This document shows positions 1-31,673 of a stretch of DNA of 64,000 nucleotides, piece by piece (within the stretch, counting starts at the first letter, position 1; each line of letters opens with the position of its first letter). The stretch lies in NCBI GenBank assembly GCA_947561715.1, contig OX387200.1:14262501-14326500 (forward strand), given 5' to 3'. The translations under genes were made by a program, and so were the position numbers. This DNA comes from Ascidia mentula (taxonomy: Eukaryota; Chordata; Ascidiacea; Phlebobranchia; Ascidiidae). A model generated the notes under the pieces. It worked only from the letters and a program-made list of their open reading frames with translations, made no database searches and had not been told where the DNA came from.

Positions 1-67
1 TATTGAGAAAGAAACAAGCCAGGTATAACATTTAGGAAAAACACAATTTAGCTACATCCTTATTTAC

Positions 68-2221: not shown

Positions 2222-5033
2222 TTAATTATTCTTCTTTTCTTTTTGATCAAGATCATCCAAACCATTATCTTTTACATCACTGTTGTTTTCTTCATCTGCC
2301 TCTTTGAAGTTTTGCTTGATATCGGTCTGTTTTTGGTCAGCATCCTCAACTTCTGAAAGTCCCTCTACCGTGTCATCGACGGTATCTTCAATTTCTTCAC
2401 CAGCTTCTTCTTTAGATCCAGGAGAAAAAATACTCTTTAGATCGTTTTCAAGGTCTTCAAAGTTGCTCTCTTGTTGGGCATCCATGTCGTTATTGGAATC
2501 TTTTAATTCGTCATAATTTTCATTCTCATCAACTTCTCTGTCCTCTAAATCAACGTCTTCTTCACTTTTAAGATCAATTTCAATTTCAGCATTATCGAGA
2601 AGATTTTTTGGATACTCGATTTCGTTATTTTCCCCATAACCTTCCTTAATCTCCTCAACAACATTTTCCTCTAATTGTTGAGTGTCGTCAATAAAATCCT
2701 CTTCCAAGTTTTCGGAATTATCATCTGCAAACACCTGCGCATTTTCAGTGGCATCATGAAGATCTTTTTCCTCGCTTTCGGAATTTTTGTCTATATCTTC
2801 CTGTATGTGTTTATTGTCGATGTTGAGATCTTCTCCCCCATTCTCGGCATTAACAGTTACATCTATTTTACGTTCTTCATCTTTGTTAATGTTGTTGAAA
2901 TCTTCGAAGACTTCATTTTCTTCTTGTTTGTTGAAATCTTCGAAGACTTCATTTTCATTTTCTTCGATTTGATCGAGAATATCATCACTTGTTTCATCGC
3001 TGTTGGTTTCTTCTTCGTTTGTCTGTTTACTGCAGATCAGTGAACATATGAACGTGGTTGCTTTGCGTGTCGTAAACTACTAGTTCTATATCAAGTTTTA
3101 GAGAAATGTTAAGAGTTGCCTTACTTAACTAAAGTTTAGAAAGCGCATTTTTACAGCTATGTCGGTTTAAAGATGACAATACATAGGTTTCGACAAAACA
3201 TATACCTTTCATATTCTTTCGTCGGGTTGTTATCTGCAGAGATCTCGTCTGTCTGTGGATGATTCACGGAAGGTAATTCATCATCATTTTCTTCAATGAT
3301 GGCGTCATTGGCTGCTTGTAATTTAAACCTGATTCGGAAAAAAATCATTGTGTCATTTTAGATTTTCTGGCCAAGGCAATAATAAGAAACCTCAACCAAA
3401 TCTTACAGTGTATCGCCACGTCGCTTGCAAAGTCTGCAACTTTTGTTTCTTGGTCGTCGGCATCTCTTCCCGCAAGATCCACCAGGGATAAGTCGGGGCA
3501 ATTGAATGCCATGCGTGCTTGAGCGCCTGATGCATGCTCCCCACTTCCACACACAGCGACAGCAGACCTTACTTTGCTGAACAACAAAATATACATACAC
3601 AATATAACATGAATGCTTCCAGATGAACATTTTTAAATATTATATTTTGATTTTATATGGCTAACCGTCAAAAAAATGCAAGTTTTAAAAATCAAAGATA
3701 ATGTAAAACTAACAAGAAAATGTTTTTTTAATTTTGCACCATGAATGACGAATAAGGTCAATACTTATCATTTACCTTGGTGACACGGCATCCTCGACCC
3801 CACCGTATTTTTCGTGAGCGGGTCTTAATTCCCCTTGAACCAACCATTTTGCAAGCACTCCATTTTCCCCAATTTGTTGGGCGACAACCTGCAAAAAGTA
3901 TTTTGTTTGTTCATGTTTGCTTGCAACGTGAAAGCCATCCCGCCGTTTTTCAAGATTGTTAATTTCCGACATTTTGTAAAAAAACGTGACAGCACTGATC
4001 CACATAAATACTTTTAGTATTATAAAATTAAATACACTTCTTAATAATTTGGTAAGTAAGTCATAATTGAAGTAACGTCACTTACACTTTTTGACATTTC
4101 TTGAACACAACTTTGACAAAACCAGAGAATTGCAGTGATATTTAAATTAAATATTTTGAGCTATATGAGCGATACTTTTACTTTGCAGGAGGAATATTTA
4201 TGCACGTGTAAAAAAACGTTTAGAAAAGTTCATGTTACTTGGTGGGCACGTTCTTCCTCGACAATGTCGCACAGGCATTTTGCAACGGCCACAGCAGTTT
4301 GAGCTGACAAGCTGGAAGATCTGTCGACCTCGTCCACAGCGGGCGCTACATCTTAAATACCTCCAGCGGCAAATCTCTTTGTTTTGGCGACACCTTTTTG
4401 TTTGCTTAAAAGTTGATGTTTAAAACGGTAAGCTACTTTAAAATATTGCAATAAATGTGTTACATCATGGTAAAAAAATTTCTGTTTTAACAAGTCGCTC
4501 TGGTCGTTTCTATAAATCTTCAAATCTATTGCGCTATTTTTACCCTCAATGCAGGGCAGCGCCTTCCCCCCCAACGTGGGGCCACGCGGATTCTGCGTTG
4601 ACGCACTTGAATGCCGTAATGGCCACATGTATTGGAGCAAGCATTCCATCCTCCCCAATTGTACACTACACAGTTAACTGCAGAAAAATACGAATAATAT
4701 CTAGCTAAGTTGATATTCAGTGGAGAAAAAATAACAAACCTGGGCAATGTCGCAAGTAGCACCTTTGTCTCGGTACTGTGCAGGTGCCCCCACATCGATT
4801 CGAGCGAATTTTTGTAAAATGATACCAACCCCTACCACATGATCTGTTGCAACCCCCCCTTCTCCACGCACAGTTCTGTCGATGGCATCTTGTTCTACGT
4901 CTTCGCCACCTTTATCACAAAGTCGATAAAAGTTTAAAAAATATTAATGGAATATAGCAAAATATTACGATGATCCGAGTTCAGTAAGGAGCAGAATCAG
5001 GATGACCAACAAGAAAACTTTTGTGCCTCTCAT
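2222..5033 (-). CDS. Family member A: secreted Arg-rich/TSP1/acidic-tail protein, 582 aa
   Basis: Eight exons join in frame: 4969-5033, 4740-4909, 4544-4677, 4239-4404, 3776-3888, 3407-3576, 3206-3328 and 2222-3029. Exon 1 starts at ATG 5033 and encodes a signal peptide (MRGTKVFLLVILILLL). The predicted mature chain begins SSWRRRRTR, then come five TSP1-like modules, one per exon: RQNCAWRRGGCNRSCGRG, YNWGGWNACSNTCG, CRWRYLRCSARCGRG, NWGKWSACKMVGSRG, and a more divergent fifth with CVWKWGACIRR. Exons 7-8 encode about 310 very acidic residues (runs such as DIDLKSEEDVDLED) with a small repeat, NEVFEDFN, and end at TAA 2222. The product is probably exported, with a cationic head and anionic tail. 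TSP1 modules often bind glycosaminoglycans or proteins, but I recognise no named orthologue. This is the longest member and the least like D-F. Confidence 0.8.
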
Positions 5034-6579: not shown

Positions 6580-8884
6580 TTAAACTTCTTCTGTATTACT
6601 TTCTTTCTCTTCTTCTTGCACATCTTGTTTCACCTCCGAACTCTCATCAACATTGGTGTGGTCTTCATCAAAACTAAACCGTAGCATATAACGTAAAAAC
6701 CTCAGCAAGAACATTCAGATTACATGTTACCAAAGTACACTCGTAACAAACGTAATTTCATAAAAAATGGTAATTTTAAATGCTTTGAAACACAATTATC
6801 AATTATATTTGTGTTAAGTGAGTTGTAAAATTACATCCAAAAACAAGCCAACCTGTGAAAACATGCCAGTCGTTTACTTTACCTCTCTTTATTATCCTCA
6901 TCGACCGCCTGATTGTTTTCATTTAAAACTTTATCAATTCCTTCCTCTTTTTTCGCTTCTCCCTCTTTTGGCGGTTCTTCACCTTCTTTCGTTTCTTCCA
7001 CTTCTTCACCTTCTTTCGTTTCTTCCACTTCTTCACCTTCTTCACCTCCTTCCGCATCTTCCACTTCTTCACCTTCTTTCGTTTCTTCCACTTCTTCACC
7101 TTCTTCACCTCCTTCCGCATCTTCTACTTCTTCACCTTCTTCCGCTTCTTTCGCCCCATCCACCACTTCCGCTTCTTCCGCTTCGTCCGCTTCTCCCGCT
7201 TCTTCCGCTTCTTCCGCTTCTTCCGCCCCATCCACTACCTCCGCTTCTTCCGCTTCTTCCGCCCCATCCACCACTTCCGCTTCTTCCGCTTCGTCCGCTT
7301 CTTCCGCTTCTTCCGCTTCTTTCGCTTCTTGCATATTTAGGGGCTTTTCCGCATTTCGCATTCTACATTGGCACTTAGTTGTTAGACATGCTTTATTATT
7401 TATATCTCAAAAAGAGATTATTGTGGGGGCATTTCCTCTCTGAAAATGACCTACGTTTCCATGAATGATGTGTCTTCATGAGTCTGGAACTCATCATTGT
7501 GTTCATCTTCCATGTTTTGTAAAGCGTCCTGGTTTAAAGAAATCCCCATGTCTTCCAACGTGTTACTTTGTCTTCCAAGGCTGCATAAATATGCAGTTTT
7601 GTAAAAATTACAAGTCCGAAAGCAAGCCTTCTTACCTGTCGCCATAACGACTCCTACATCGCAAAACGCATCTTCTCGGTTTGGGAAGAATACACCTTCC
7701 GCCACACGTGGCACTTCGAATGACGTAAGCACTTTTTAGACCGTACCTTCCACGTCCTCTGCATTTTCTCCACCCCCAGAGGCAATGTCGAGGTTTACAG
7801 CAACTCTTTCTGCACACTCTGGTTTCCTAAGCAACACAACGGGTGTTTATCACGCACAGTAACCGCGAATCATCCAATTCCTACTCTCAGCGAAGGACAT
7901 CGGTTTCCGCCGTGTTTGGGTGTGCTTATTATACTTCGTGTGCGGAATTGTACAGTCTTTCCAAAAATGCAACTACTCCAAAGACCCCATGCGGAAACCC
8001 TGCAGTGAACTAGAAACAGGAATTTTGAAGTATAATTTAACACTTGATGGCATCAAAGAGCACGAAACGCACCTGAACAATGTATTCCAGAGCAACGACC
8101 TTTCGGTATTTTGCACATTCTACAACGGTTTAAACTTATTAGTTTGTAACGCTTCGCACCAATTCCACACTTTGCGCTACATCCCAAGTACTTCCACACA
8201 CACAATTCTTTTTTACCCACGCATTTCCTTGTCTCCTGCAACCAAAATATTTGTTCTCAAAAACTATTGTCACAAAACTACATTAGTTACTCGTGTTGTT
8301 GGGCAAGGAGTTCCGCCATATCTAGGTAAACTCTTTATTTTCCTGGTTCGTGTTTGTTTTCCATTCTTGCCACAAGTATTTGAACACGAACTCCATGGCG
8401 TCCAGTTGTGTACTTGACATGCAACTAATATAATAGAACATGAAATTACTACCTGACCAAAACTGTAAAAAGAAGACTGTTTATTCCGGTTCGATTGCGT
8501 ACCTGGGCATGATTTTAAATTGCATTCGTGGATTGGTTTAACGCATCTACCGCCACACTTGTTCGTTCCGGTTTTAATTTGATGATAACGACCGCGACCA
8601 CACGTAGTACTGCAGGCCCCTCGTTTCCACGTACAGTCTTTTCGCACACAGGGAGGTACGTATCTTCTGCGGCGTCGTCTCCGTCTTCTTCTCCTATAAA
8701 ACATTTTTTCGATTACATAAATTTACAACAATATTATTACATTCGAAAAAACTACAACCAAAACCCGAAAACAGGAGTTAAACACAACACAGGTAAAGTA
8801 AGATAGGACATTTTACCATGAAGATCCTTGATGAACTAGAAATATCACCAGCAAAATAAGCAGCACAAACTGTGTCCTCCTCAT
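6580..8884 (-). CDS. Family member B: secreted Arg10/TSP1/acidic-repeat protein, 523 aa
   Basis: Nine exons close in frame: 8817-8884, 8503-8693, 8291-8424, 8073-8235, 7885-8009, 7636-7826, 7455-7580, 6883-7362 and 6580-6673. The signal peptide is MRRTQFVLLILLVIFLVH, and the mature start is SSW followed by ten Arg. Five TSP1-like modules follow: CTWKRGACSTTCGRGRYHQ, VHNWTPWSSCSNTCGKNG, CVWKYLGCSAKCGIG, SAWGLWSSCIFGKTVQFRTR, and CLWGWRKCRGRGRYG. Then come an acidic linker exon, a 160-residue exon of Glu/Ala repeats (units like EEAEEAEVVDGA and KEGEEVEE), and a last exon ending KESNTEEV. Intron phases match A, D, E and F. For module 4 the acceptor at 8010 is chosen because it alone keeps the frame and a full Trp-Trp-Cys motif. 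The repeat part looks expanded by slippage; the Arg run does not (mixed codons). Function unknown. Confidence 0.8.
6930..7340 (-). repeat. Coding minisatellite in acidic tail of gene B
   Basis: The minus strand reads as imperfect GAAGAAG/GAGGTGG-like units giving EEAEEA, EVVDGA and KEGEEVEE repeats. On the plus strand the same DNA is almost pure pyrimidine, which creates long spurious Leu/Pro and Ser/Ala ORFs. It lies within the eighth exon of gene B and stays in frame throughout. Confidence 0.8.
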
Positions 8885-10266
8885 TGTGTTGTCTGACGAT
8901 TACTGGCTCATCTCACTCATGCTGTCACCTAAAAATGCTTCGCTTATTATCTCTTTTCTGCGGATGCTTGACACAACAAAAAAAAATAAAACACATGGAT
9001 CCACGCAACGGTGCCACAGGATGCAAAAAGGATATAGTTAGTAGATCTGAATGGTGTTTACCTAACAACCAAAGCATCCACTGAGTGAGGTTAAAACAGC
9101 TGCAATAGCGACATAGCAAAACATTTTTGTTGTGAGGGCGTATTTTGTTTTCCACACTATAATATCCATTTGATGAATCTATTCTAAAACAGCAGTGGGC
9201 GGGAAATCAAAAAGGAAATCCAATATAACCGTTTAAGACACAAGCAAAACATTCATAGCCTCAACCAACGTCCCAAACTCCGGCGGCTTTTGTGACAGTT
9301 TGTAAGCGAGATTTCGAAATATCTGTGCCTTCAGTTGGACTGTGTAGGTTGTACGCACGTTCGGCACCTCACACCGCTTCATACGTTTCTCCAGTACATC
9401 GATTTGTCAAAATAAATAACAAAAAATATTATCCCGTTGCAATAAAATAAATTTAAAAGTACTTCTGATGGTCACCTAACCGGTGAATCAACATGCTTAC
9501 ATTCGGAACGGAAACTAACCACCTTTTGGTAAACTAAAATACTCTTGTGGTATGTTTGTATGTTACATAGTTTTTGCATCTTGTTTGGTACATGGTTAAG
9601 TTAAAGTGTGGAAAATTTACAAAAAATGACTGCAACAGACGATTTTAGGAACTACTATTTTTAGAATGTCTCAATTAGATTTTGAATATAGTCTGCAACA
9701 ATTTCCTGTCCTGTGTGCGAAATACACGCTTGTCGGAGAAAGGAGTCTTAGACAAACTTGCGAGCTAGCAAGATAATGGATTAGTGTGTATATTTAGCCA
9801 ACAGCTGGGATTCTTGGTGAGACAAGCTGGTTGGCCAAATTGCAATTCGCCCACGAAAGAAGACTATGGCAGTAACGTAACGATGGCATGATATGAGAAT
9901 TAGGAGGAAGTCAGATCATGCATGGAGTTGCGCAAGACCCACAAAAGCATAAACGCAGTTGGTCTTCAGGATATATTGACAAACACAAACGCCGTCAAAA
10001 ATCTATTTATTTCGAACGTAAATGTGACTGAAAGCTTTTAACACACAATCAAAAGTATAGCTTGGTGCGTTGTCCAAGCATCCACCATCATTGTTTTGTT
10101 TCTGCTGTTGTCATTTCAGGACGTTTGGTCGATGTTGTCTTAAATTCATTCAGTCTGTTAAAGTAGTAGCTATACACGAAAGTGGATCTATTCAAAAGCT
10201 ACAGTTCAGTATGGATTATACATAATGCAATAACATAGATATGTCTCAACTATTTGCCAAACAATC
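8885..10266. other. Upstream region of gene B, duplicated at 11060-11650
   Basis: No exon is seen. Bases 8870-9170 (promoter side of gene B) and about 9890-10010 have clear diverged copies at 11245-11480 and 11510-11650. Shared words include ATTACTGGCTCATC, CTTCTGCGGATG, ACACATGGA and CCCACGCAACGGTG-like strings. This marks an old tandem duplication that included the upstream DNA of a gene B-like unit. Confidence 0.6.
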
Positions 10267-12313
10267 TTACAAACAAAGAAAAACTTCTTCGACAAACCTT
10301 TCATCCAAGTTGTCATCCGCTTCGGCTCCACGGTTAGAATTTGGTGAGCCAGCGTCTCTACAAACAAACAATTATACATTGTTCTGACAAAATGCACAAG
10401 GTTTCAAAGTCACAAAGTTTAACAAAACGGTTGAAAAACTGCATAAATGTATAATAATGTGAGCCCGCATTTCCAGTGTATTTTAATAATTTTTGTCTTA
10501 ATACTTGGAACGTCAATCAAAGGTAAACTAGTCTTACAAACACGTTATTGACAGTTCGTAAATAGATAGTAATAGAATTACAAACCTGCCACTTGAAGAC
10601 AGGGAGCAATGCCTCGCCTTCGGTAAACGGCATTTTCGGCGGTCAGAAATGACCACAGGAGACTTTAGGGCAAACCCGGGCAAAAGCATTTTAATTGGAC
10701 CCCATTTCTGTACACACAAACCTCGTTTGCGATTTTTACACAATCGTACTTCCTAAACAAAAGTAGAGTTTGGAAAAAAACAACTAAGTACTGCTGCATG
10801 AAAAATTCTTGCCTTTAGAGAGGGACATTTTTTACCACCATTCTTCGGTGCGGTTACAATGATACGCGTGCGCCATTGAAAGAACCGATGCAACCTACAG
10901 GTAGTCCAATGGCCCCATCCAGATACTTTGCATTTAACTTTATGCACGCACAAAAAGCATCAGGTTAAAACGATAACATAATGGTCATTTATGTTAACAA
11001 AAACCATAATAATCATTAAGAGCTGCAGACAGATGTGTACACTGTTTCGATCTATTATGTTTCATCGGTGTAGCTGGTGATTGAGCACTGGGCTAGTTTT
11101 AGGCTAGCAGGCACACAGATTGCTAATTTGTGGAAACCTTTGGGTCATTCGTCGATCCGTTGGGTACCCAACAAGGTGCCAAACAAAAATGCGACGAACC
11201 ACCGTGGAGCGCAATATGACCAAACGACTGCTTGGTATCTAATAGTGTTATTCGTGTCTCCTCGTTGTGTTATCTCACCATTACTGGCTCATCTTTCACC
11301 TAAAATAGCTTCGCCTAACGTTTCTTCTGCGGATGTTTGACACATCAAACACATGGACCCACGCAACGGTGACACAGGATGTTTTAGATCTGAATGCCGT
11401 TTACCTAGCGATAGGAGTATCCTCTGGGTAAAGTTGAAACAGCTGCTATAGCTACCTAGCAGCACATTTTTGTTGTGTGTGAAGTTAGACTATGGGAGTA
11501 ATGTAACGATGACATGAGAATTTGGAAGTAGTCATATCGGGCATGCATGGAGTTTCAAAAGACTTGTACCACCCTTCAGATGCAACCCGGAACAATTATC
11601 ATCAAAATCTAGTTTATATTGACATACACAAACGCTGTCAAAATCGCTTTTACAGTATACATTGATAACAGTATTTACATGGGAGTCGAGGCACCACCTG
11701 TGTGAATTTAAGCCAATAAAAAAATATTTTCATTCTACACTAAAATCACAAAAAAAACATAGTTTGCGGATGCACCCACGGAAAAGCAGTGGGCGAGTAA
11801 TAACTGAGCATGTCGACTCTCAGAGTCACAACATAAATATTTAATAAAATAACAAAGTAAATTACTTGATTAGACATCAGTTCCATTTTACAGGGCTTCA
11901 AAATGTTCACCCTATGTTCTTACCAAGTACGGTCGAGGATAACTTTGCTTTATGGACCTAATATTTATTGACAATTATCATTATTTTTGCTGCACATGTC
12001 TCTGCTTTTGTAGCATTTGAAATGGTGAAGGTGCTGTAGTAAGAGTCACACCATAGGCCTCTTTCAGGGCATTAATGCTATAGATGCCATAGAACAATAA
12101 AAACAAATTTCGTGAATTTTTTGTAATGTTTATTACTCCCTTTAACTGCCTGGCGACGTGTTTTGCTTTTGTTGTGCTTGGATTACTGTACCACGTTAAC
12201 TCATGCAACCTCCCTTTACGTAGGTACATTCTAAAAGACATGTCTGTTGCCCTCAACTGAAGTAGTAATATTAACAACAAAACTGTGCCGAAAATCCTCT
12301 TTGCGCACCCCAT
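10267..12313 (-). CDS. Family member C: short two-module TSP1 protein, 158 aa (tentative first exon)
   Basis: Proposed exons are 12220-12313, 10813-10937, 10586-10752 and 10267-10357. The last three are clearly homologous to exons 5, 6 and 7 of the other members: modules KCKVSGWGHWTTCRLHRFF and KRGLCVQKWGPIKMLLPG, then a short acidic end with AEADDNLDER. They are open and in phase, although the first of them has a GC donor (AAG/GCAAGA). The original first exon and the Arg/TSP1 exons 2-4 are missing; a decayed copy of the family start lies near 11255. The only nearby signal peptide is MGCAKRIFGTVLLLILLLQ, starting at 12313, and its donor CTAC/GTAAAG has exactly the phase needed. That junction is my inference; otherwise C is a 5'-truncated pseudogene. 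It lacks the Arg run and the long acidic tail. Confidence 0.45.
10938..12219. other. Proposed intron 1 of gene C, with a dead family promoter and first exon
   Basis: Bases 11245-11480 match 8870-9170, the start of gene B. At the position of the gene B ATG and AGG AGG ACA CAG, the copy reads ACG AGG AGA CAC GAA TAA, so both start codon and frame are lost. No exon 2-4 remnant is visible. The rest shows no features. Confidence 0.5.
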
Positions 12314-12601: not shown

Positions 12602-15289
12602 TCATTCGTATAAAAGCTCTTCATCACTTCCTGCTTGCTCTTCCTCGGTGTTAAGAAATTCGTCATTCACATCGGAGCTTGGCACAAAAAAGTACATAAT
12701 TATTTTCAGCAAGAAAAAAGGAGCAATTATTGATTGGAAAAAGAGCAATTATTGACTTATTTATATGAGTCCACACCATACTTATTTTTATTTTCACATA
12801 TAATTCGCGTTAATATATCTTTAAAAACACAGCATGCAATATAACTATTACTTTGCCTTGTTGCCATCATTTGAGTTCTGTTCGCCTGGACTTATGTCTG
12901 ACAAATCGTCTTCAGCCAAAACTTCAGTGGCGTCATTCTCGTTGTTGGCACTTCATCAACAAAGAGAAAAAAACATGTCACAGCGATTTGATTTTATCGT
13001 CACTTTGTTCGACTGTATAAGCTTTGCACATGTCAACAACTTTGATTGATATTTTGGCCGGGCACATTATAATTCCGGAAAAAATATTTATAACAAAACT
13101 GCAGCGATTTTGAAGAAAATCGTATGAAGTTGAGCCGTAAGGGAAATTTGCAGTTTTCGCCAATTATGTTTTTGTTTCATATCACATGTTATTAAATTCA
13201 TCTTTTTGGTCTTCTCCTGAGTCACTTCGCGATGGGATGTTTAAGTCGTTGTCTTCTAATTTGCCATCAACCAAACTTTTCTCATCAAGATCATGCACTC
13301 TGTTGGTACAAAATAATATTAGAGAAATCAACCGATAAAAAATCTCTCTATATGCAGCTTGCATGATCTTTTCTACATATTAATGTTCGTAAATCTTAAT
13401 TTTTAGAAATTGTTTTAAATTTTAGAGCTGCAAGTCAACCTTCGCCTGCACTTTCTCGGTCGAGGGAAGTGGCAAGAGATTCCTCCACAAGACGCTTTTT
13501 GAGAGACGTAGGCGGACCGGTAACTGATGGAACCAAGTCGCTTACAATGTCCCCACGCCCATCTGCAGTTAATTGGCTTGCATCTTTTGCATCGTTTTGT
13601 CTCCTAAACATGATGGGAGTTGTGTATTTTGTTTCTTATGCCACCGGGTTCACATTAAAGGAAATTTTCTCTATATGAAATGACTTGAGGGAAGATACCT
13701 TATTATACTATGAGTTATTAGATGATATTGTGGGAACTATCTGTTTATAGTCGGGAATTGTGACATAGGTGATATGCAGTGACAGCCGAATCTATAACCT
13801 GCATACCCGCAGCGCTGGGCATCTCTTTCCGCCAAATTTTGGACTCCGCACAACTGTTCGTGTACGCTGCTGTATGCGGTAAATACGCCCACATAAACTC
13901 CATCTGCTCCAGACTGAAACTTTGCAGTTAACTAAAACACAAAACGCAAACAAAAAACTTGCAAATTTACTCGATGTTTTTCATTGCGCTGGATAAATTT
14001 ATGTTTCTTCGTGTATATGTGTACTAGTTCATACAATATGTTGTTAACTCACACCTGGGCATGGTGACATGGTGCATTTTTTGACTGGAGCCTTGCACAG
14101 CCCACAAAGGTTTTTGCTTATCAGTTTGTAAAGTCGTAAACCTTTTCCACATTTTACGCTGCACCCCAACATCTTCCATTTACACGTTTCTGCTCGTCCG
14201 GCGCATATTTTTGCATCCTGCAATGCACTTTAACATAAAAAATCGGCGCACAAATGTAAAAAAGTTTTCAAGGAAACATGAAATACCTGTGTCGTTGGGC
14301 AAGCTGTGCCACCGTGTTGGTTATAAGTTTTAATCTTCCTTGTGCGAATTTGTGTTCCGATGCTTCCGCATGTGTTGGAACATGAGCTCCATGAACCCCA
14401 GTTGTACATTTTGCAGTTCACTTAAAAACAAACAAGATTCATAGCGTAATTTACAATTTATTCAGTGAACCTCTTCAGTTTTAGTGTTTTTTCATCTCCA
14501 CAAAACCATGTGAGATTGTTATAGTTAAACATGTTAAATTTACATTTATGTTAAATGTATTACATTGTGTCATACATTTAAGTTGATATATTTTAGCGTT
14601 ATTTTATTCCAGAAAAAGTAATACTTAGTGTGTATACCTGGACATTTCTTCGGAAAGCAGCCCACACGTGGTTTTGTGCATGATCCGCCACAACTATGTC
14701 CCCTGGTTTTGGTGTATTCATAATACCCACGACCGCATGTCACACTGCAAGCTCCTTTTTTCCACAAACAATTTTGTCTGACGCACCGTCTTCTCCTGCG
14801 TCGCCTGTACGCAGTAAAACTGTTGTTGAAGTAACCCGTACTTAGTATTACCATTCGAACATATAAGCATATGTGAAAAAAATAGTCAAAATAATTTACG
14901 GAGTGCTTCTTACGGCACAAAACTATTTATTCAGAGGTTTGTTGAAAAACGACCGTAACGTCGATAAGAATAAATACTTTTACGTTAGATGGGCATCGAA
15001 TGGGCTGTTGATATATCTAGAAGCATCAGTATAACAAATTGTTTTGGGGTTTAATGTCCACAGAACAACCATACTTATGATTGAAATAATATACGATGCG
15101 GCAATCTTTAAACAGACCCGAAAACTTTATTCTATAACTTACAATATTGTTGAACAATCATTCAATCGATTACTAAAGTGTGTAACAAACTTTAAAAAAG
15201 GAGAAATATTTAACAAACCACGAAGATGAGGAATGAATAAGTGCGACTAGCACAACTGCAACCAAGAGGACTTTAACAATGCATCGCAT
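12602..15289 (-). CDS. Family member D: secreted Arg6/TSP1/acidic-tail protein, 370 aa
   Basis: Nine exons close in frame: 15219-15289, 14638-14804, 14287-14420, 14055-14217, 13807-13931, 13440-13603, 13186-13299, 12852-12950 and 12602-12677. The signal peptide is MRCIVKVLLVAVVLVALIH, followed by SSSSW and six Arg. Five TSP1-like modules follow: CLWKKGACSVTCGRGYYEY; YNWGSWSSCSNTCGSIG; CKWKMLGCSVKCGKG; VWSRWSLCGRIYRIQQRTR; CRWAWGHCKRLGSISYRS. The tail is about 105 acidic residues ending SDEELLYE. Exon 6 is ended at a GTTGAC donor (13440) because the donor used in gene F is destroyed here and reading on meets a stop. Copies E and F share most exons almost base for base, so the duplication is recent or homogenised. 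The secreted, charge-polarised architecture is seen directly; any function is inference. Confidence 0.82.
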
Positions 15290-16760
15290 ATTGTCTGATT
15301 TGGGTCCAGTGCAGCCCTAAATATCCTACAGAAAATATTTTGCCTTCGTTTTATTTCGAAACTAAAAACCATATTACATAAACCGGGGTTATGATGTCTA
15401 TTATAGCAATGTTCCCCAAACACCATCGCGAACTGCTACCGGTCCATAAACCTTTATTTTCGGAAAAAATCGAAAATCTGCGGTTTATCTTCTAAACTTT
15501 GCCGTCCATCAAAATAATGCCTACGTTAAACTGGTCTTTAGTGCAGACAAGGTATGGATCGCTGTACTAAACCGTGAACATACTCGATCTTCACATTAAA
15601 ACCCAACATCAGCAAACACTGGGCATGCATCATTCTCACTTACACATAAACGCACATAATCACAGTGACCCTGTTTTAAAAGCTTCGATTAATGTTTCCT
15701 TTTTTCATACAGATGCTTAAAATACAGAAGTAAACGGATCTTCGTCAAGCATCCACACAAATGTGAGAGGGCGAAAAGAGTTTATTCGTGACATTAACAG
15801 GGTTTACGTAACTGGCAAGATATCCAATGTGTGAGGTTAAAATAATTGAGACTCATTTAGAATATTTTGCAAGTGGGCGCTTATTTTCATTCCTACGCAC
15901 AACAAACTGAGATAAAGTTTTGACAACACAGGAAAGGAGGAATGCAGTGGAAGGAATGAGTGGTTGTTTCCTTTGGCGTCACTGACATCCAAGATGGTTT
16001 GAGTTCCCACTAATCAATGAGAATTCCCACTAACCGAATTGTGATATTACCATTTTCATTTCGGAACTAACGCGTTCATGCGACTGATGACAAATGTCGT
16101 CTTACAGACCCTTGGCCTCATCTGTTCCAACGCGACCGGGTTTCCCAATGCAATAGCGTTTATATCAGACCGGTTGGAAATTGAACGCACGTCGCCGCTG
16201 CATGTTGCGTTAAAAGATAGGCTATACTGTAAAAACGTAAATTAAAAACGCTGCTAAAGTCAAGATAGCTAAGTGTTTGAAAGAAAACTGTGCAACGAGC
16301 TTCTCCAGCGGATCGGCGACGCTACACGCCACACAGCAGTTCAATTAACCGTCAGCATGAATATGTTGAAAATGCGCTCCCAATTCTCCCAGGCAGTCGC
16401 CAAGCACGCAGAACACAACACACGCTTGTATCCTATGAGAAGGAATGACCGGCGCCACATCAAGGCGTAGAAAAAGGAGCGATGTCCATTTAAAACACAA
16501 AGAAACGTAATTATAGATACAGTTTGCAGACATGGCAAATACTAATACGCTTACCAAACTGTTTTGCGTTCGATGTATAATATCGAATATAGGCTGCCCC
16601 TTGTGAGATCACATCCACCAGTTACATTATTCAAATGCCAGTAAAACTTTCCAATTTCACGAGGCACAGTTAACAGTCATAACCATGACTCACGCTTACA
16701 ACTAAAGCCATATTCAAATAGAATCTTTTTAAACACATAACAAAAACTGACAGCAGAAGA
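15044..16760. repeat. Upstream duplication unit R1 (in front of gene D)
   Basis: This matches R2 (16852-19260) and R3 (23880-25200) over long stretches, for example AATATACGATGCGGCAATCTT, CATATTACATAAACCGGGGTTA and the block around 16273-16470. It contains exon 1 of gene D near its left end. Compared with R2 it lacks a 424-bp MITE and about 320 bp present at 18043-18360, which R3 retains. Outside exon 1 no coding exon is supported. Confidence 0.8.
15290..15345 (-). promoter_or_regulatory. Conserved core upstream of genes D and E
   Basis: The words GGGCTGCACTGGACC and (on the minus strand) GATATTTAGGG lie just upstream of the D start codon. They recur upstream of E (24075-24100) and in the orphan copy at 16980-17005. 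Position and conservation suggest a core promoter or 5' UTR element shared by these paralogues. There is no direct evidence of a transcription start. Confidence 0.35.
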
Positions 16761-16851
16761 ACAAGCAAACATAACCACGCGGTCGACACGCGCACGGCTA
16801 CTGCGCGTTAAACTCAGAAAACACGACAGAGAAAAGAACAAAACAACTAAC

Positions 16852-19859: not shown

Positions 19860-19867
19860 CTCTAAAA

Positions 19868-20805: not shown

Positions 20806-23800
20806 TCATTCGTAAAAAAGCTGTTCATCATTTCCTGCTTGCTCTTCCTCGGTGTTAAGAAATTCCTCAGTCACATCGGAGCTAAGAATAATATTTTTAG
20901 AAATAGGAAAAAAGGGCGATCATGGACTTATTTACATCGATGCCATACTTATTTTATTCTAACATATAGTGTTACAAAGAGTAAAGCATGCAATATAATT
21001 GTTACTTTTCCTTGTTGCCATCATATGAATCCTCTTCGTCTTGACTGATGTCCGACAAATTTTCTTCCGTTAAAATTTCATTGGCGTCTTTCCCTTTGTT
21101 GGCACTTCATAAAAGTAGAAAATAAATAGGTTACAGCGATTTGATTGGAAATGTGGATCAAGGTATTCATCGTCAATTTGTTTGATTGCATAAGCTTTGT
21201 ACATGTCAAATACTGCGATTGATTATTTTGCTGGTACATTAAATTTTTCCGTAACAAAAAGTTTTTTTACAAAACTGCTACGACTTTTAAAGAAAATCGT
21301 ATGAAGTTCAATGCAAAAAAAATTTTGTATTTTGTTCCATATCACTTTACATGTTGTTAAATTCATCTTTTTTGTCTTCTCCTGAGTCACTTCGCGCTGG
21401 GATGTTTAAGTCGTTGTCTTCTAATTTGCCATCAACCAAATTTTTCTCATCCAGATCATGTACTCTGTTGGTACAAAACAATATTAGAGAAATATAAATG
21501 TTTGAGGGTGCACATTATACTATAAAACATCTTTTCCACTTAATAACGTTCTTAACTCTTAATTTTTCGAATTTGTTTTTAGTCTTAGAGCCGCATGTCA
21601 ACTCTCGCCTGCACTTTCTCGGCCGAGGAAGGTGGCAAACGATTCCTCCACAAGACGCTTTTTGAAAGACGTAAGCGGGCTGGTAACTGAAAAATGCAAG
21701 TCGCTTACAAGGCCTCCACGCCCATCTGCAGTTAATTGGCTTGCATCTTTTGCATCGTTTTGTCTCCTAAACATGATGGGATTTATGTATTTTGATACTT
21801 ATGCTGCCGGGTTTACATTAAGGGAACCATTCTCTGTATGGAAGGACTTGGGAGAAGATACCCTTTTTATACTATGAATTATTAGATGATATATTGAAAA
21901 CTATGTGTTTATTGGCGGGAATTGTGACATAGGTGATATGCAGTGACAGCCGAATTTATAACCTGCATACCCGCAGCGATGGGCATCTCTTTCCGCCAAA
22001 TTTTGGACTCCGCACAACTGTTCGCGTACGCTGCTGTATGCGGTAAATACGCCCACATAAATTCCATTTGCTCCACGCTGAAACTTTGCAGTTAACTGAA
22101 ACAAAAAAGGCAAACAAAGAAATGCACTTGCAAATTTACTCGATGTTTTTCATTGCGCTGGATAAATTTATGTTTCTTTGTGTATATGTGTACTAGTTCA
22201 TACTATATGTTGTTAACTCACACCTGGGCAAGGTGACATGGTGCATTTTTTGACTGGAGCCTTGCACAGCCCACATAGGTTTTTGCTGATCAGTTTGTAA
22301 AGTCGTAAACCTTTTCCGCATTTTACGCTGCACCCCAACATCTTCCATTTACACGTTTCTACTCGTCCAGTGCATATTTTTGCCTCCTGCCAAACACCGT
22401 AAGATAAATAATCGGCGCACAAATATAAAAAGTTTTCAAGGAAACTTGAAATACCCGAGTCATTGGGCAAGCTGTGCCGCCGTGTTGGTTATAAGTTTTA
22501 ATCTTCCTTGTGCGAATTTGTGTTCCGATGCTTCCGCATGTGTTGGAACATGAGCTCCATGAACCCCAGTTGTACATTTTGCAGTTCACTTGGAAATAAA
22601 CAAGATTAATAGCGCAAGGTACAATAAATTAAGTAAACCTTTCAGTTTTAGTGTTTAAAGCTCCACAAAACCACATGAGATTGTCACAGTCAAATAGTTA
22701 AAAATTGTGCTACAAGATTTACATTATGTAATACATTTAAGTTAATATATTTTAGCGTTACTTTGATGCAGAAAAGGAAATACGTAACGTATATACCTGC
22801 ACAATACCTGCACATTTCTTCGGAAAGCAGCCCACCCATGGTTTTGCACTTGATGTTTTCCATTGCACCGGATTATTTTATAATATTTATAAGCTTATTT
22901 AGTATATTTCATACAATATGTTGTTAACTCTCACCTGGACATGGTGACATGGTGCATTGTTTCACTGGAGTCTTGCACAGCCCACAATGGTTATCACTTC
23001 TCAATTTGTAAAGTCGTAAACCTTTTCCGCATTTTACGCTGCACCCCAACATCTTCCATTTACACGTTCCTACTCGTCCAGTGCATTTTTTTGCCTCCTG
23101 CAATTCACCTTGAGATAAATAATCGGCGCACAAATATAAAAAGTTTTCAAGAAAACGTGAAATACCCGAGTCATTGGGCAAGCTGTGCCGCCGTGTTGGT
23201 TATGCGTTTTAATCTTCCTTGTGCGAATTTGTAATCCGATGCTTCCGCATGTGTTGGAACATGAGCTCCATGAACCCCAGCTGTACATTTTACAGTTCAC
23301 TTGGAAACAAACAAGATTAATAACGTAATTTACATTTAATTCAGCAAACCTTACGGTTTTAGTGTTTCCATCTCCACAAAACCATGTGAGATTATTACAG
23401 TTAAAACATTGTGCTAAAAGATTCACATTACAATATATTTTAGCGTTTCTTTTTTTGCAGAAAACGAATTACTAAGGCCTATACCTGGACATTTCTTCGG
23501 AAAGCAGCCCACACGTGGTTTTGTGCATGATCCGCCACAACTATGTCCCCTGGTTTTGGTGAATTCATAATACCCACGACCGCATGTCACACTGCAAGCT
23601 CCTTTTTTCCACAAACAATTTTGTCTGACGCACCGCCGTCTTCTTCGCCGCCACCTACGCAGCGAAACTGTTGTTACCGAAAAGTAACCCGTACTGAGTA
23701 TTATCATTCGAACACAAGCATATGTGAAAAAATACTCAAGTTATTTCAGGCACAAAACTATTTATTCTGAGGTTCGTTGAAAAACGACGGTAACGACGAT

Positions 23801-24065
23801 AATAATAAATATTTTTTTGTTAGATGGGCCCCGAATGGGCTGTTGATATGTCTAACATCATCAGTTACAAATTGTTTAGGTTTAATATCCACAACTTACT
23901 TATGATTGCAATGATATACGATGCGGCAATTTAAAAAAGGCACTAAAACTTTAATCTACATGGAATATTGTTTAATTCAATCGATTACCAAAAGGAAGAT
24001 GAGGAATGAAGAAGTGCGACGAGCACAACTGCAACTAAAAGAACTTTAACAACAATGCATCGCAT
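20806..24065 (-). CDS. Family member E: seven-module TSP1 hybrid gene, 472 aa
   Basis: Eleven exons close in frame: 23989-24065, 23485-23654, 23166-23299, 22935-23097, 22455-22588, 22224-22386, 21971-22095, 21603-21766, 21351-21464, 21006-21104 and 20806-20881. The signal peptide MRCIVVKVLLVAVVLVALLH is followed by SSSSFWW and six Arg. Modules 3 and 4 (YSWGSWSSCSNTCG, CKWKMLGCSVKCGKG) are present twice as an exon pair; both pairs begin and end in phase 1, so repetition keeps the frame. A truncated, acceptor-less third copy of exon 2 lies in the intron between the pairs. The acidic tail ends EQAGNDEQLFYE. Exon 8 (module 7) differs from gene D mostly by replacements. The donor GA/GTTGAC at 21603 is inferred. 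Identical gene order and intron phases in D support the model. Confidence 0.8.
22793..22850 (-). pseudogene. Truncated exon 2 fragment in intron of gene E (recombination scar)
   Basis: The complement reads as the 3' end of exon 2 (VGCFPKKC then donor G/GTATTG), but it is cut after the codons for Lys-Pro. The sequence continues, without acceptor or Cys modules, into DNA homologous to the intron before exon 5 of gene D (TTCATTGCGCTGGAT near 13980). This is the breakpoint of an unequal crossing-over between two tandem copies. Confidence 0.8.
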
Positions 24066-25675: not shown

Positions 25676-28237
25676 TCATTTGTGTAATTTCTCTTCCTCA
25701 TTTGCTTCCTGCTCTTCCACGTTGTGAAGAAATTCCACACTCAGACTGGCGCTTTAAAAAAAACGAAAACAATTGTTTTTTGAGATAAAATAGCAAAAAG
25801 GGAAAAGAGTACCAATACCACACTTGTTTTTTATTGCACGTATAGGTTTTATGTTCTAGCCTGCGCCAATTAGGCCTGCTTTTTGTATCGAATATAGCCT
25901 GTGAAAAATCTGTGATGAAAAAGGTGTACAAAGTAATTATTACTTTTCACTGTTGTCATCTGTCAATTCATCGTCGTCTGGATAGATTTTTGTTAAATCC
26001 TCTTCAGCTAATGTTTCATTGGCATCTGTCTCATCTTTGGCACTTGATAAAGGCAGAGAAAAACATATTACCAAAAGTTTATTAAAATATTATCAAACTT
26101 ATTTTTTTCACTTTGCTTGACTCCAAGCTTTACACAATAGCATATTACCTAAAACAAGCATAGTTGTGTATGTTTATTTTGTGTGGCACATTTAAGTGAC
26201 AATTCAAACTTCCCAGGTGACTTCTAGTATTAAATATACGGATCTGAGCTCAACCACAGTGATCCACATATTCAATCGTAGATATCATATTTTAAATACA
26301 CCTTTTTATACGTCACAAGTATATTCGCCACGAGGTATTCGCGACGTTGTAATAAACTTTCTCCAGACATCAATGTTGTTCTATAACTTTACTTGTCGCC
26401 AAAATCATCTTGTCTGCCTTCTCTGTAGTCACTGAGCGTCGGTTTATGTAAAATGCTGTGCTTTAAATCGCCATCTTCCAAGCTTTCTTCATCCAAATCG
26501 TGCATTCTATCAATGCCGCCATCAACATCACCATCTTTGTCGAGACTTTTCAGAAGATACAAAAAATAAAAATAATGTACACAAAATGTATACGAGTGTC
26601 GGCTTTTTGTTTGTTGTAGGACAACTTCAGGGAAATTACACAAATCTTTTTGGACGATTAAAATTGCATGTTGTAAGTATACACATCAAAAACCTTTCCT
26701 CCCAAGCCTTGGAGCCACAAGGCAAAGTTCGCCTACACCTTCTTGGGCGAGGAAGGTTGCAATTTCCTCCACACGACGTTTTCCGAACGACGTAGGCTGA
26801 CTGGTAACTGTAGTAATATCCTAAACGCTTACAAGGTTCCCACGCCCATCGGCAGTTAATTGGCTTGCATCTTTTGCAACGTTTTGTCTCCTAAACACGA
26901 CATAGAAGTTACGTATTTTTTTGTTTATGTTGTCAGGAATCATATTCCCATTGAGACATGAAACCCCCTTTTCATATCTGGGGTAGTTTAATTAAATTTA
27001 TGTGATCATCTATTGAAGCGATTCCCAACCTTTTTGTGGTTGGGTACCACTTGGAGGTAAAACAATTTCGACACGTACCACCTAGTTGAGTGTTACAAAG
27101 TACATAGGAAATGAAGAGGTCACTTACAATTTTTTTCAATTCGAACTAGATCAGCAAATTACATAAAGGTGCTCGCGTGCCACCTAGAACTATCTGTTTA
27201 TTGTTGGGAATTGTGACATAGGTGATATGCAGTGACATCCGAATTTATAATCTGCATACCCGCAGAGCTGGGCATCTCTTTCCGCCAAATTTTGGACTTC
27301 GCACAACTGTTCGTGTACGCTGCTGTATGCGGTAAATACGCCCACATAAACTCCATCTGCTCCACGCTGAAACTTTGCAGTTAACTGAAACACATAAAGC
27401 AAATAAAAAACTTACGAATATACTTTATGTTTCCCATTTCGCTGAATTAATTTGTAATGTTTATATTCAATATATTTTGTACTATACGTTGTTAACTCAC
27501 ACCTGAGCATGGTGACATGGTACATTTTTTCACTGGATATTTTTTCACTAAATAGCGTGTAGAACGTGTATTTCAGTATCCTTTTGAGTGTAACGCTTCC
27601 TGCCCCAAAATATATTAACCAGGCCTTTAAGTCGAACCGTTTGTTAAAAACTTTGGAGTTAAATCAAGTAATTCTTTTAAAAATTAACCTTTTTTAAGGT
27701 TGATAGATAACGTTACTTTCGTTTGGAAAAAAAGATACTAATGCCTATACCTGGACATTTCTTCGGAGAGCAGCCTACACGTGGTTTTGTGCATGATCCG
27801 CCACAACTATTTCCCCTGGTTTTGGTGAAATCATAATACCCACGACCGCATGTCACACTGCAAGCTCCTTTTTTCCACAAACAATTTTGTCTGACGCACC
27901 GCCGTCTTCTTCTTCTGCGCCGTCTCCACCTATACGAAATAAAACTGTTGATGAAAAAACTTGTCATAATAAGCCTTCATAATTTTGTCACCCAAAGTAG
28001 GGTGTATTAAAGCTTTTTAATGGTGACAGAACACCAACAAGAAAACGCCTGCGGCAATCAAATAGATGAACGTCTCTAAAAATAAAACAAATGTGCATTG
28101 TTATCAAACAAAAACATGGCACAAAGGCGTATTCCATAAAAAACAAGAAACTGGTATTTTACATACCACGAAGACGAGGGATGCAAAACTGCCACTAACA
28201 CAAGTGCAACCAATAGAATTTGAACACTTCTTCGCAT
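25676..28237 (-). CDS. Family member F: short Arg9/TSP1/acidic-tail protein, 299 aa
   Basis: Seven exons close in frame: 28167-28237, 27751-27929, 27260-27384, 26694-26890, 26393-26545, 25944-26042 and 25676-25751. The signal peptide MRRSVQILLVALVLVAVLH is followed by PSSSWW and nine Arg. Three TSP1-like modules follow (CLWKKGACSVTCGRGYYDF; AWSRWSLCGRIYRIQQRTR; CRWAWEPCKRLGYYYSYQ). The exon pair 3-4 present in D and E is absent; a stub of exon 4 remains near 27500-27540. Joining exon 2 to exon 5 keeps phase 1, so loss of the pair is frame-neutral. Here the module-5 exon keeps its full end, GSKAWEE, and a normal AG/GT donor. The tail is about 110 residues, rich in Asp and Glu, and ends EEEKLHK. 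It lies head to head with the dead plus-strand copy H across about 350 bp. Confidence 0.82.
27018..27187. mobile_element. hAT-like MITE fragment downstream of exon 5 in gene F
   Basis: It begins GCGATTCCCAACCTTTTTG and ends GCGTGCCACCTAG, resembling hAT terminal sequences. The homologous intron in gene E (around 21893) lacks it, so it is an insertion after duplication. No clear target-site duplication is visible, so the ends may be trimmed. Confidence 0.55.
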
Positions 28238-28590: not shown

Positions 28591-28990
28591 CAACGTAAAA
28601 CTTGTATTACTTATTACCAAACAAGCTTTCTAAATGTCTTGGCACCTCAAGACTGAGGATAGACCTCAATTTCGGGGTTGGTTTCGGCGACTAAGACGAC
28701 GCTGCACAGTTGGGAATTGCCAATGTGGCGGAAGTTATCGTCGACAACCAAGTCGTACTTGGCGCATGATGAATTGTCCAGATAAGCCACAAGTACCATT
28801 TGTCATAAACAGGGTTTTCTCGACGTTTGTTTTACTTGAGTATCCTACCCTGAATTGCAGCAAACTGTTTTGTTTTGCACTGGGGTCATTGGGGGCCTTG
28901 TAAGGACGCGTGCAACAAGTTAGATGCAGAGAAAGAACCTGAAATATCGCCGCCTTGTTTGGGTGAATCCCCTGCACGTATCTCACAACC
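28591..28990 (+). pseudogene. Family pseudogene H, broken sister of gene G
   Basis: Bases near 28670-28795 match exon 2 of gene G but have an internal deletion that removes the central TSP1 part: GTTGGGAATTGCCAATGTGG joins the two halves. The donor that follows is ATAAGC instead of GTAAGT. Bases 28855-28985 match exon 3 of G (GGGGTCATTGGGGGCCTTG) with small frame-breaking changes. The first-exon region (ATG at 28591) no longer encodes a signal peptide. It is not expected to make a family protein. Confidence 0.85.
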
Positions 28991-30179
28991 TAATGAGTGT
29001 GTATAGAACAACAAAGAGCTAATCTTTATCAATCTAATGAGTTCTAAATTTATTTGAAGTACTATAAGAGTTAAAGAAAACCTAATTAACTTGCATGTGG
29101 CCAGGTTAAACAGATTTGGTCATAAAGCGTTCTAAAAAAAGAAATGCAGAACCCACGCAACAGAGCCTCCAAACTGTTTTGGCAACACATTTTGAACCTA
29201 CCGTTATTCTGTGTTGTTGCTTATTCTGTGTTGTTGACGGTTTATTTAATAAAGTGTTGCAGTGTTTGAGCTATTTCACATTTGGCTAAATGAATATTTC
29301 CGTCATGAGCACAAACCATGTTTTAATTCGATATATTTATGGACAAATAACATACACTTGCGGAATAAACTTTTTCTTTTCAAATGATAAAAATGATCAT
29401 ACAATGTGGAAACCTGCGATAGGCATTCAAATGGAAATTTTGACATCAAATGAAAAAACAAATGGAAAAGTCCCAACCAAAGCCTGTACCTGGCATTCAT
29501 TAGCATCACACATTTACAGGTTACACTTGGCATATGGGCGAAACTATTGACATTTTTGATAAGGCGATTTCTCCATAAAGTTAAACAACAAGACAGCACC
29601 ACGTTTTAAAAGAATTACAAAACATTCGTATTTGTTTACATTCGTAAAAGCTTTACTTGCAACAAGTTACATAAAAAAACTTTCGGACAACCCAACTCTG
29701 GGTCGTGAGCCACAGGTTGGTAAACACTGGTGTAGTGTTTTGTATAAAGAGATGCTGTACCTGCGTAATTGTGTAATATTTCCTCTTTGATTCGCGGATA
29801 CAACGATACCACGTGACTGCTTATGTCCGGCCATGTGTTTGCGTTCACCGATGGTAGTTTTTTAATTCATGTTGTTTAGTATTTCAAAGCAATTTTGGTA
29901 ATGCATTTATAACCGTATAAGTAAAGATAGACGGCAAGTCCCCGAGACAGCATATTTCTTGTCGCACCTGACGTAACTCGTGCTATAAAATGTGTTTAAA
30001 AAATTAGTCTGTCATAAGAAGTGCACTAGAATTTATAGCAGTCAATAAAGGAGGGACTGATATGGCTACTGCAAAAAATAATTCCTGCAATACGCCGTGT
30101 CAGTCTCGGGTCTATAATTACAGTAGTTACTGGTGCACTATTTTTAAGCAAAAGAGACCTTAAAAGGCGAAACAGTGTA
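28991..30179. other. Spacer between H and the dead minus exon
   Basis: There is no supported gene; ORFs here lack motifs. It contains a hAT-like terminus near 29690-29729 and, from about 29950, the beginning of the second copy of the F/H unit. Confidence 0.45.
29690..29729 (-). mobile_element. hAT-like terminal fragment
   Basis: The complement reads CAGTGTTTACCAACCTGTGG followed by CTCACGACCCAGAG, a typical hAT (Charlie-like) 5' terminus. No matching second terminus or target duplication was found, so it is probably a fragment. Confidence 0.5.
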
Positions 30180-30260
30180 CAAGATACTGATATTCCATAA
30201 ATCACGAAGAAGTCGGATGAAGAAGTGCAGGACGGGAAACTAGCAGGACGGGAATCAACC
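30180..30260 (-). pseudogene. Dead first exon of a minus-strand family member
   Basis: The complement (CTATTTGGTTGATTCCCGTC...CACTTCTTCATCC) aligns with the signal-peptide exon of gene F (CTATTGGTTGCACTTGTG...GTTTTGCATCC), but the start codon and frame are gone, and no Arg/TSP1 exons follow to the left. It stands in the same head-to-head position to G as F does to H. Confidence 0.65.
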
Positions 30261-30586
30261 AAATAGCTTTTAAAGGAAACAAAATGCTATATTAAATATA
30301 CACAGACTTGTGCAGACAAGAACATGTGTGGGTTACTATTTTATCGCATTTGTTTGCCGTGTATGCAAAAAACAAGGCACGTGTCTATAGCTATTTTAGT
30401 TATACCGTATTCCGGTATGTAGCCTTATGGCGGTTACAGCCGGTATTCGCATGCTCGTTGTGCCCACTTGCTTAGCAGGGAGGCTACGCAGAAGTTTCGG
30501 AATACATTTTTAACGTGGCTAGTCTGAAACTTTCCACACGAACCCTTTGATCATCTTTAATGAATCTGAGTTAGTTTTCAGCAAAT

Positions 30587-31673
30587 ATGAAGTTATTAAT
30601 TGTCTTTCTTTGGGGCCTTGCCCTTTTCAGTTTGTCCAAGGGCTGGTAAGTAACACATTATGACTTTGCGTGTGTCTGATATAATAACACATTTATAAAG
30701 AGAAAAATCTGTTATTTTTGGATAGGTGGTCGCGAAGACGTCGACGAAGACATTGCCCTGTTGTAAATTGTTCATGGAAACCATCGAAATGCAGCAAAAC
30801 ATGCGGTGAGGGTCAAATCATTTATATAAAAACCAGAGGTAACCAATGTGGTGGAAGTTGTCGTCAACCACCAAATCGTATTTGTCGCATAAAGAATTGT
30901 GCAGGTAAGTCACACACCGATTGTCATGAACAGGTTTACGCTTCAGACGCAAATGGCCCCTGTTAACTACGCAAATTTTTAACCCAGTAAACTGTGCTGT
31001 TTTAAACTGGGGTCATTGGGGACCTTGCAAGGACGCGTGCAACAAAGTTGGATTCAAAGAAAGAACAAGAAATATATCGGTCGCAGCCTTGTATGGAGGA
31101 ATCCCCTGCTCGTCTCGCACGGTATAAAATCGTCAACGAAAACTATTAAATTAGTTTCAACGTTCTGTCAGTATCTTTTGGGCTATTTGCAAGATTACCT
31201 ATATTTTGGAAACAACTTCTAAATAACAAATGTTGGTGCACTTTGTCTTAAATGGAACTAGCCTTCTTACAGGAATAATTTTTGCAGGAAACTAAGAAAT
31301 GCATTGATAGAAAGTGCGGGTGTGGAAAGAATGATTGTGTGGTAAAATATGGAAAGTGTAGAAACGGAGTAAAGACCGGTAGAATTGTGAAGCCGCAAAT
31401 GTGTGGAGGAAAATGCCCTTCGACAACGAAAAAATGTAGCAGAAAGAACTATTGGGCCATCTTTAATTGGTTACATAGAAGGTGGGTAAAATATTGTGGT
31501 GCTGATGAAAAGTGACTAAACATACAGTTGAACAATACCGGTGGAAACATACGAAAACAATTTGAGATACCTACTGCTTTAGAATGGAGTATTTTAAAAA
31601 TAGTCCCAGACTTTTAACACAGCAATAATAAGAGAGTAAAAATAACTTCTATACTTTCAGGTTTTCTGGATAA
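30587..31673 (+). CDS. Family member G: plus-strand Arg6/TSP1 protein without acidic tail, ~192 aa
   Basis: Exons are 30587-30645, 30726-30904, 30988-31121, 31288-31481 and 31661-31673, all in frame. The signal peptide MKLLIVFLWGLALFSLSKG is followed by WWSRRRRRR. Modules are CSWKPSKCSKTCGEG, LNWGHWGPCKDACNKVG and a Lys-rich Cys module (CGCGKNDCVVKYGKC, MCGGKCPSTTKKC). Exon 4 ends in phase 2 like exon 6 of the other members, suggesting the order 1-2-3-6. The last exon is tiny (FSG, stop). If it is not used, translation runs on to a stop at 31515 with a 10-residue longer module exon. No acidic tail exon is visible, so G is cationic throughout. It is the most diverged intact member. Confidence 0.7.

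Follow-up and report, generated by a model that had tools for sequence, protein, structure and literature searches.

Introduction

The closest described systems are proteins built on TSP1 repeats. F-spondin and SCO-spondin combine such repeats with reelin, spondin or other named domains. The tunicate astacin-like metalloproteases (Tast) are also TSP1-repeat proteins (PMC8849226), and a cationic Cys-rich part and an anionic part are joined in one chain in aurelin-like defensin precursors (PMC2866484). Here we describe a 64-kb stretch of the Ascidia mentula genome (C67:14262501-14326500, presumably on chromosome 4; referred to as the window) that contains seven related genes, A to G. Glycosyl hydrolase 6, which tunicates are expected to carry next to their cellulose synthase, had two weak matches in the genome over the Pfam cut-off (E of 9e-6 and 1e-4), the second interrupted by a stop. 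We rebuilt the seven gene models independently from splice sites and reading frame, and the models supported a preliminary description of the locus as a tandem tunicate family of TSP1-based, charge-polarised proteins that are secreted, judging by their sequence. The genes had a common structure and a shared Trp-Arg head, and their products had a basic Cys-rich core with, in five of them, a long acidic tail; the Cys exons were constrained, and the tail charge was retained beyond what neutral simulation generally produced. We propose, with a probability of about 0.45, that the products are secreted, TSP1-based, disulfide-rich polycations that bind sulfated glycans and carry the tail as an intramolecular counter-charge.

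Gene structure of the cluster

Models A to F lay on the minus strand and G on the plus strand. As the preliminary description had stated, every model closed in frame: all seven had a length that was a multiple of three, no internal stop and a stop codon at the end. The introns had AG acceptors in 46 of 46 cases and GT donors in 45 of 46, the exception being a GC donor in C. The phase series 2-1-0-1-0-2-2-2, which had been described as common to all, was exact in B and D; A had this series minus its last phase, E had one additional 0-1 pair, F had one 0-1 pair fewer, and the phases were 1-0-2-2 in C and 2-1-0 in G. The other models had thus gained or lost exon pairs or end exons relative to B and D. 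An additional splice that extended G to 31673 was found to be unnecessary, as the simplest G contained four exons and ended at 31515.

Domain composition and comparison with known TSP1 proteins

Pfam TSP1_spondin (PF19028) and TSP_1 (PF00090) matched A, B, D, E and G over the cut-off, and F (35.5 bits) and C (37.2 bits) matched TSP1_spondin under its cut-off of 41. For these scans, the acidic tail was largely or wholly removed from A, B, D and F and the signal peptide from D, and G was taken in a 188-residue form. Within this scope, the matches of A to G to E = 1 were to TSP1-type families only; the added domains of F-spondin and SCO-spondin were not found, EGF_CA was absent from the models, and the scanned models contained no astacin domain, which distinguishes them from Tast. 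Signal peptides were assigned by eye, and past these, visual inspection of A to G showed no membrane-spanning stretch.

The best Pfam matches were the type-b exons. An alignment of the b modules (A3, nine rows) revealed that they retained the W..W and R.R motifs and most Cys residues, as in TSP1_spondin and TSP_1 repeats, and that in several the first Cys pair was reduced to its first member. The last two Cys residues were invariant and were located on the next exon, which indicated that a phase-0 intron splits each canonical TSP1 domain. The earlier wording of single-exon TSP1-like modules was therefore only partly right, as it does not fit the canonical domains. Short modules with 6-8 Cys residues, the head module included, were located between the b modules and gave no Pfam call over the cut-off. 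The head module had one invariant Trp and lacked R.R, yet it aligned to TSP1 by profile, with an hhalign probability of 94.5% and an E-value of 7.6e-8. A PDB profile search with the head module revealed 18 matches to E = 1, the best at 4e-4 and two of the 18 below 0.01; we take all 18 to be TSP1-bearing proteins, F-spondin, CCN3, Semaphorin-5A and circumsporozoite protein among them. The first Cys module is thus TSP1-related. Between D, E and F, the ratio of nonsynonymous to synonymous substitutions (dN/dS) in the Cys exons was 0.26-0.38 (Nei-Gojobori counts, no formal test).

Compared with spondin-type TSP1 proteins, the window proteins were far more basic, had the short Cys modules interleaved and the b modules split by introns, and carried the Arg head and the acidic tail. 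Compared with the aurelin-like precursors, the acidic part was C-terminal and much longer, and the body was a string of TSP1-like modules. No ascidian family of this architecture was found in the open-licence literature, as judged by titles and the starts of abstracts, and no matching architecture was found in Pfam or in PDB sequences; the comparison covered one tunicate genome. The parts are of known kinds, while their combination and charge layout are new to the literature and database searches made. The cluster adds an architecture in which a basic TSP1 body is followed by a long acidic tail.

Charge layout and acidic tails

The net charges of the Cys cores of A to G were +58, +52, +21, +47, +64, +33 and +28, respectively. 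After the last Cys, the tails comprised 316 residues with a net charge of -85 in A, 239 residues with -84 in B, 98 residues with -23 in both D and E, and 116 residues with -29 in F. Consistent with the preliminary description, the tail was only short in C (48 residues, net -2) and absent in G, where 5 residues with a net charge of -1 follow the last Cys. We also compared the modules themselves: 30 window modules had an average charge of +20.9 per 100 residues (lowest 9.3), and 51 control TSP1 modules had an average of +2.9 (highest 11.9), with a Mann-Whitney p of 1.7e-13 for modules that are not independent of one another. A pattern search at 14 loci of this genome supplied the control modules, among which are some near-copies and a small number of head modules from chromosome 7. 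The window modules were strongly basic throughout, indicating that the polycation is the whole body and extends beyond the Arg head. The earlier proposal that the acidic tail masks the Arg head was not supported in that form, since the core is also polycationic (+21 to +64); it is better restated as a tail that opposes the whole basic body, and does so unevenly.

To a large degree, the tails differed in sequence and agreed in charge. Upon alignment of the D and F tails, 54 of 95 aligned residues differed, and the charges over this part were -26 and -25; the F tail was 13 residues longer in front. When the D tail was mutated neutrally to the D-F divergence, the charge came to -8.4 +/- 4.5, and -25 was reached in about 1 of 1000 runs. 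The tail thus seems to be kept acidic while its sequence is free to change, and the cluster may be a natural case in which evolution keeps the charge of a tail more than its sequence. In B, the middle acidic exon contained a 9-base minisatellite at 6941-7330, with 43 copies at 72% match and E/A-rich coding. The search for tandem repeats gave no row for the A acidic exon, so repeat expansion alone is insufficient for the tails, and it was rejected as their sole origin.

The Trp-Arg head

As had been described, a Trp immediately before an Arg run was found in six of the seven genes (as W-S in G), and C had no head. The runs were RRRR-T-R in A and 10, 6, 6, 9 and 6 Arg residues in B, D, E, F and G, respectively. 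In A, the codon split by the intron encoded Ser and Trp came next; in B, D, E, F and G, the Trp codon itself was split TG/G. An R-x-x-R motif stood right after the signal peptide in all six genes, and the dN of the head exon was among the lowest of the exons between D, E and F. Six-frame translation of the 64 kb revealed five runs of at least 5 Arg, which were the heads of B, D, E, F and G, each before a C-x-W Cys module. The mean was 0.07 such runs in 30 first-order Markov shuffles of the window, which ruled out a chance origin.

We compared the Arg codons of 13 distinct runs, six from the window and seven from chromosome-7 loci that are described below. All six Arg codons were used, Lys was never found and Thr was found once; Arg occupied 88 of 89 listed run codons, or 86 of 87 after the splice-straddling first codons of L018 and L025 were dropped. 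The window cores contained 141 Lys and 161 Arg residues (Fisher p of 5.6e-11 against the runs, a value inflated by gene kinship). The mixed codon use excluded a simple-repeat origin of the runs. The use of six Arg codons together with zero Lys points to a choice of Arg at the protein level, not to a drifting or simple DNA repeat, and argues for selection that acts on Arg itself in the head runs.

A related TSP1-EGF family on chromosome 7

The whole genome (195.8 Mb, 79 contigs) was searched with the D head exon, which revealed 37 places, located in the window itself and on chromosome 7 (C71); with a composite query made from these, the number rose to 105 (E up to 0.1). We read the best 62 chromosome-7 places, 61 of which were at 8.76-9.72 Mb and one at 13.84 Mb. 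The module was missed by the pattern in one place and a frame-consistent acceptor was missing in four, which left 57 heads. As evident from these, 27 heads had 5-8 consecutive Arg residues and 30 had 0-3. Forty-five heads had a signal-like exon, four of these being likely false picks (about 41 net), and the junction codon was a Trp split TG/G in 33 heads, with the automatic acceptor probably wrong in some of the others. At about 8.76-9.75 Mb of this contig (loci L015-L032 and L045-L091), we observed about sixty copies of the 8-Cys head exon, many TSP1 arrays and EGF repeats; this region of about 1 Mb is a large expanded gene cluster.

Four gene ends were read on chromosome 7. L067, whose head was LFWID without Arg, and L068, which had an 8-Arg head, combined TSP1 modules and EGF repeats with a hydrophobic, membrane-spanning stretch. 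Two shorter genes, which follow the heads of L016 and L021 (6 Arg each), contained TSP1 modules and EGF repeats (L065 and L066), and no membrane-spanning stretch was found in them before the next gene. Such a stretch was therefore present in only two of the four gene ends and was rejected as a trait common to the genes on chromosome 7. EGF_CA was found in L065-L068 and was confirmed by Pfam in L066 and L067. In L068, Pfam revealed 12 TSP1 repeats in one open frame, and the hydrophobic stretch matched no Pfam entry. None of the four gene ends had an acidic tail of the window type.

The two families thus share the signal exon, the Trp codon split in phase 2, the Arg run and the 8-Cys first module. 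In contrast, the chromosome-7 family has near-neutral TSP1 modules, EGF_CA repeats and, in two of four gene ends, the membrane-spanning stretch. The Arg head did not originate as a feature of the window cluster alone, given the 27 chromosome-7 heads with 5-8 Arg. As the head and first module are shared with chromosome 7, the head appears to belong to a wider TSP1-EGF family that is, by prediction, partly membrane-bound. A small soluble cluster is thereby linked to a large TSP1-EGF cluster in a chordate relative of vertebrates. A tree of 50 head columns did not separate an ancestral from a derived Arg head. Queries with the a2 and a3 exons gave strong matches in the window only, with four weak chromosome-7 matches at E 0.008-0.08. 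Other TSP1 places (C67 at 17.0, 19.87 and 21.77 Mb; C73 at 11.91 Mb) were considered as sources of the head and set aside, as no run of at least 4 Arg was found in the open frames from six stretches, which are not necessarily first exons.

Proposed function and alternative explanations

We infer secretion, glycan binding and shielding by the tail as follows. The basic body, formed by the Arg head and the unusually basic TSP1-like modules, would most likely bind sulfated glycans. A candidate partner is the highly sulfated dermatan sulfate of phlebobranch sea squirts, or other polyanionic surfaces may serve; about 53% of the units of phlebobranch dermatan sulfate are disulfated (PMC3127831). The acidic tail may supply a counter-charge within the molecule and in this way limit or tune the binding of polyanions, and it may also prevent self-aggregation along the secretory route.

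Several observations weigh against this proposal. From the head onward, the net charges of A to G were -22, -22, +21, +30, +47, +13 and +33, so that none of the long-tailed chains (A, B, D, E and F) was balanced, and C and G had no long acidic tail at all; shielding can therefore not be a requirement of the whole family. Because the charges fail to cancel out, neutralisation in the simple sense is not the rule; the tail more likely provides partial shielding or steering. The core-to-tail donors, judged by eye, were good in A and B (GTAAGA), whereas those of D and E (GTTGAC) and of F (GTTTTT) were weak. The charge simulation starts at D or E and not at their ancestor, and at half the divergence, -25 was reached in 22 of 1000 runs from D and in 12 of 1000 from E. 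The acidic exons alone had a dN/dS of 0.56-0.60 between D, E and F (no formal test). The head was dispensable in related genes, as 30 of 57 chromosome-7 relatives had at most three Arg. Lastly, the support consists of charges and gene models derived from sequence, and glycan binding is a prediction from them.

Part of the same evidence can be arranged differently. Basic propeptides can be cut by furin-like proteases after the signal peptide, as in pro-albumin, and the Arg run may be such a short propeptide, in which case the mature protein would lack the Arg head. Runs of at least 4 Arg hold R-x-x-R, mostly directly before the first Cys, and their length of 4-10 suggests a loose constraint. 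However, Arg also fills the positions on which furin makes no demand, Lys is missing from all 13 distinct runs, some chromosome-7 heads have no such site (LFWSD, GKMPE), and the basic core and tail would be left unexplained; we therefore regard this explanation as doubtful. The joining of a cationic Cys-rich body with an anionic segment in one chain could also suggest an antimicrobial or membrane-active precursor, whose tail silences the body until cleavage at the basic core-tail boundary. Precursors of antimicrobial peptides usually bear a removable anionic propiece (PMC2866484), and A, D, E and F have dibasic or polybasic residues close to this boundary. Basic pairs occur throughout the core, however, which makes a pair at the boundary weak evidence; the long-tailed bodies, at about 150-340 residues of TSP1-like modules, are far larger than the antimicrobial peptides cited from that source, and G and C have no long tail. 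Like the furin explanation, such a precursor is a serious but less likely alternative. A role in defence or recognition, suggested in the preliminary description, is possible.

Two further explanations concern the setting in which the proteins would act. The products may belong, as soluble members, to a recognition system to which the chromosome-7 TSP1-EGF genes also contribute, and would then compete as decoys or ligands for shared targets. The layout of the signal exon, the phase-2-split Trp codon, the Arg head and the first module are common to both families, and both loci expanded in tandem. Common ancestry does not show common ligands, however, the bodies of the two families differ strongly in charge, and a membrane stretch in two of four chromosome-7 gene ends does not establish a membrane-receptor role there; we consider competition of this kind improbable. 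In a broader form, the charge-split window proteins would be a self-shielded secreted arm of a large, expanding tunicate recognition system and would meet the targets of approximately sixty TSP1-EGF genes, whose heads are related and often Trp-Arg, as decoys, ligands or opsonins; this is likewise a speculation to which we give little weight. TSP1 proteins are common in the extracellular matrix, and the charge polarity along the chain would allow opposite ends to link chains into a network, as in a structural protein of the matrix or tunic. Two of the seven genes have no long tail, and the location of the proteins is itself predicted, so this role also appears quite unlikely.

Individual gene models

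Gene A (2222-5033, minus; 8 exons, 582 residues) closed in frame with phases 2-1-0-1-0-2-2 and matched both Pfam families over the cut-off. Its head exon (4740-4909) encoded Trp, RRRRTR and the first 8-Cys module, and acidic exons 7 (3206-3328) and 8 (2222-3029) spanned 2222-3328 and formed the tail. Gene B (6580-8884, minus; 9 exons, 523 residues; supported by Pfam) had a head exon at 8503-8693 with Trp, 10 Arg and an 8-Cys module. Its acidic exons spanned 6580-7580 (7455-7580, 6883-7362, 6580-6673), the middle one containing the minisatellite revealed by the repeat search. Gene C (10088-12313, minus; 5 exons, 170 residues) had no head exon, a short tail and the single GC donor, and its TSP1_spondin match was slightly under the cut-off; it is possibly decaying.

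Gene D (12602-15289, minus; 9 exons, 370 residues; supported by Pfam) had a head exon at 14638-14804 with Trp in the intron-split codon, 6 Arg and an 8-Cys module, and its acidic exons spanned 12602-13299 (13186-13299, 12852-12950, 12602-12677). Gene E (20806-24065, minus; 11 exons, 472 residues; supported by Pfam) contained seven modules, and the repeat search revealed that one exon pair was duplicated internally; its head exon (23485-23654) encoded Trp-Trp, 6 Arg and an 8-Cys module, and its acidic exons spanned 20806-21464 (21351-21464, 21006-21104, 20806-20881). Gene F (25676-28237, minus; 7 exons, 299 residues; Pfam match under the cut-off) contained three modules, one exon pair having been lost; its head exon (27751-27929) encoded Trp-Trp, 9 Arg and an 8-Cys module, and its acidic exons spanned 25676-26545 (26393-26545, 25944-26042, 25676-25751). 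The acidic exons of D, E and F are those used for the dN/dS counts and the charge simulation. Their introns varied in length among the three genes, and the last two acidic exons were constant at 99 and 76 bases. In all three, a stop codon overlapped the donor following the first acidic exon; an unspliced form would end there with a tail that is still acidic.

Gene G (30587-31515, plus; 4 exons, 199 residues) had the head W-W-S-RRRRRR on an exon at 30726-30904, which was also found by the Arg-run scan, and had no acidic tail.

By eye, we observed a remnant of a head-module exon within an E intron (about 22806-22853, minus) and a remnant of an a2-type exon within an F intron (about 27503-27560, minus), which look like traces of the gain and loss of exon pairs.

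Other features of the window

Degenerate G-like exons with a broken Arg run and a W..W module were observed at 28634-29003 (plus) and look like a pseudogene. Between D and E, a direct duplication joined 15747-16555 and 17882-19000 in three ungapped blocks of 91-96% identity, and no gene was recognised in it. About 0.4 kb between the duplicated blocks (about 17476-17887) had inverted-repeat flanks by eye and resembles a small mobile element; it was absent from the repeat listing, which had a 150-base minimum. Rfam gave no match anywhere in the 64-kb window. Exons at 1-1320 (minus) presumably belong to a gene resembling methylenetetrahydrofolate reductase. At 38974-43050 (minus), a 1358-codon open frame contained kinase, VPS15-like helical and WD40 domains; this is a VPS15-like gene whose coding sequence lies mostly in a single exon.

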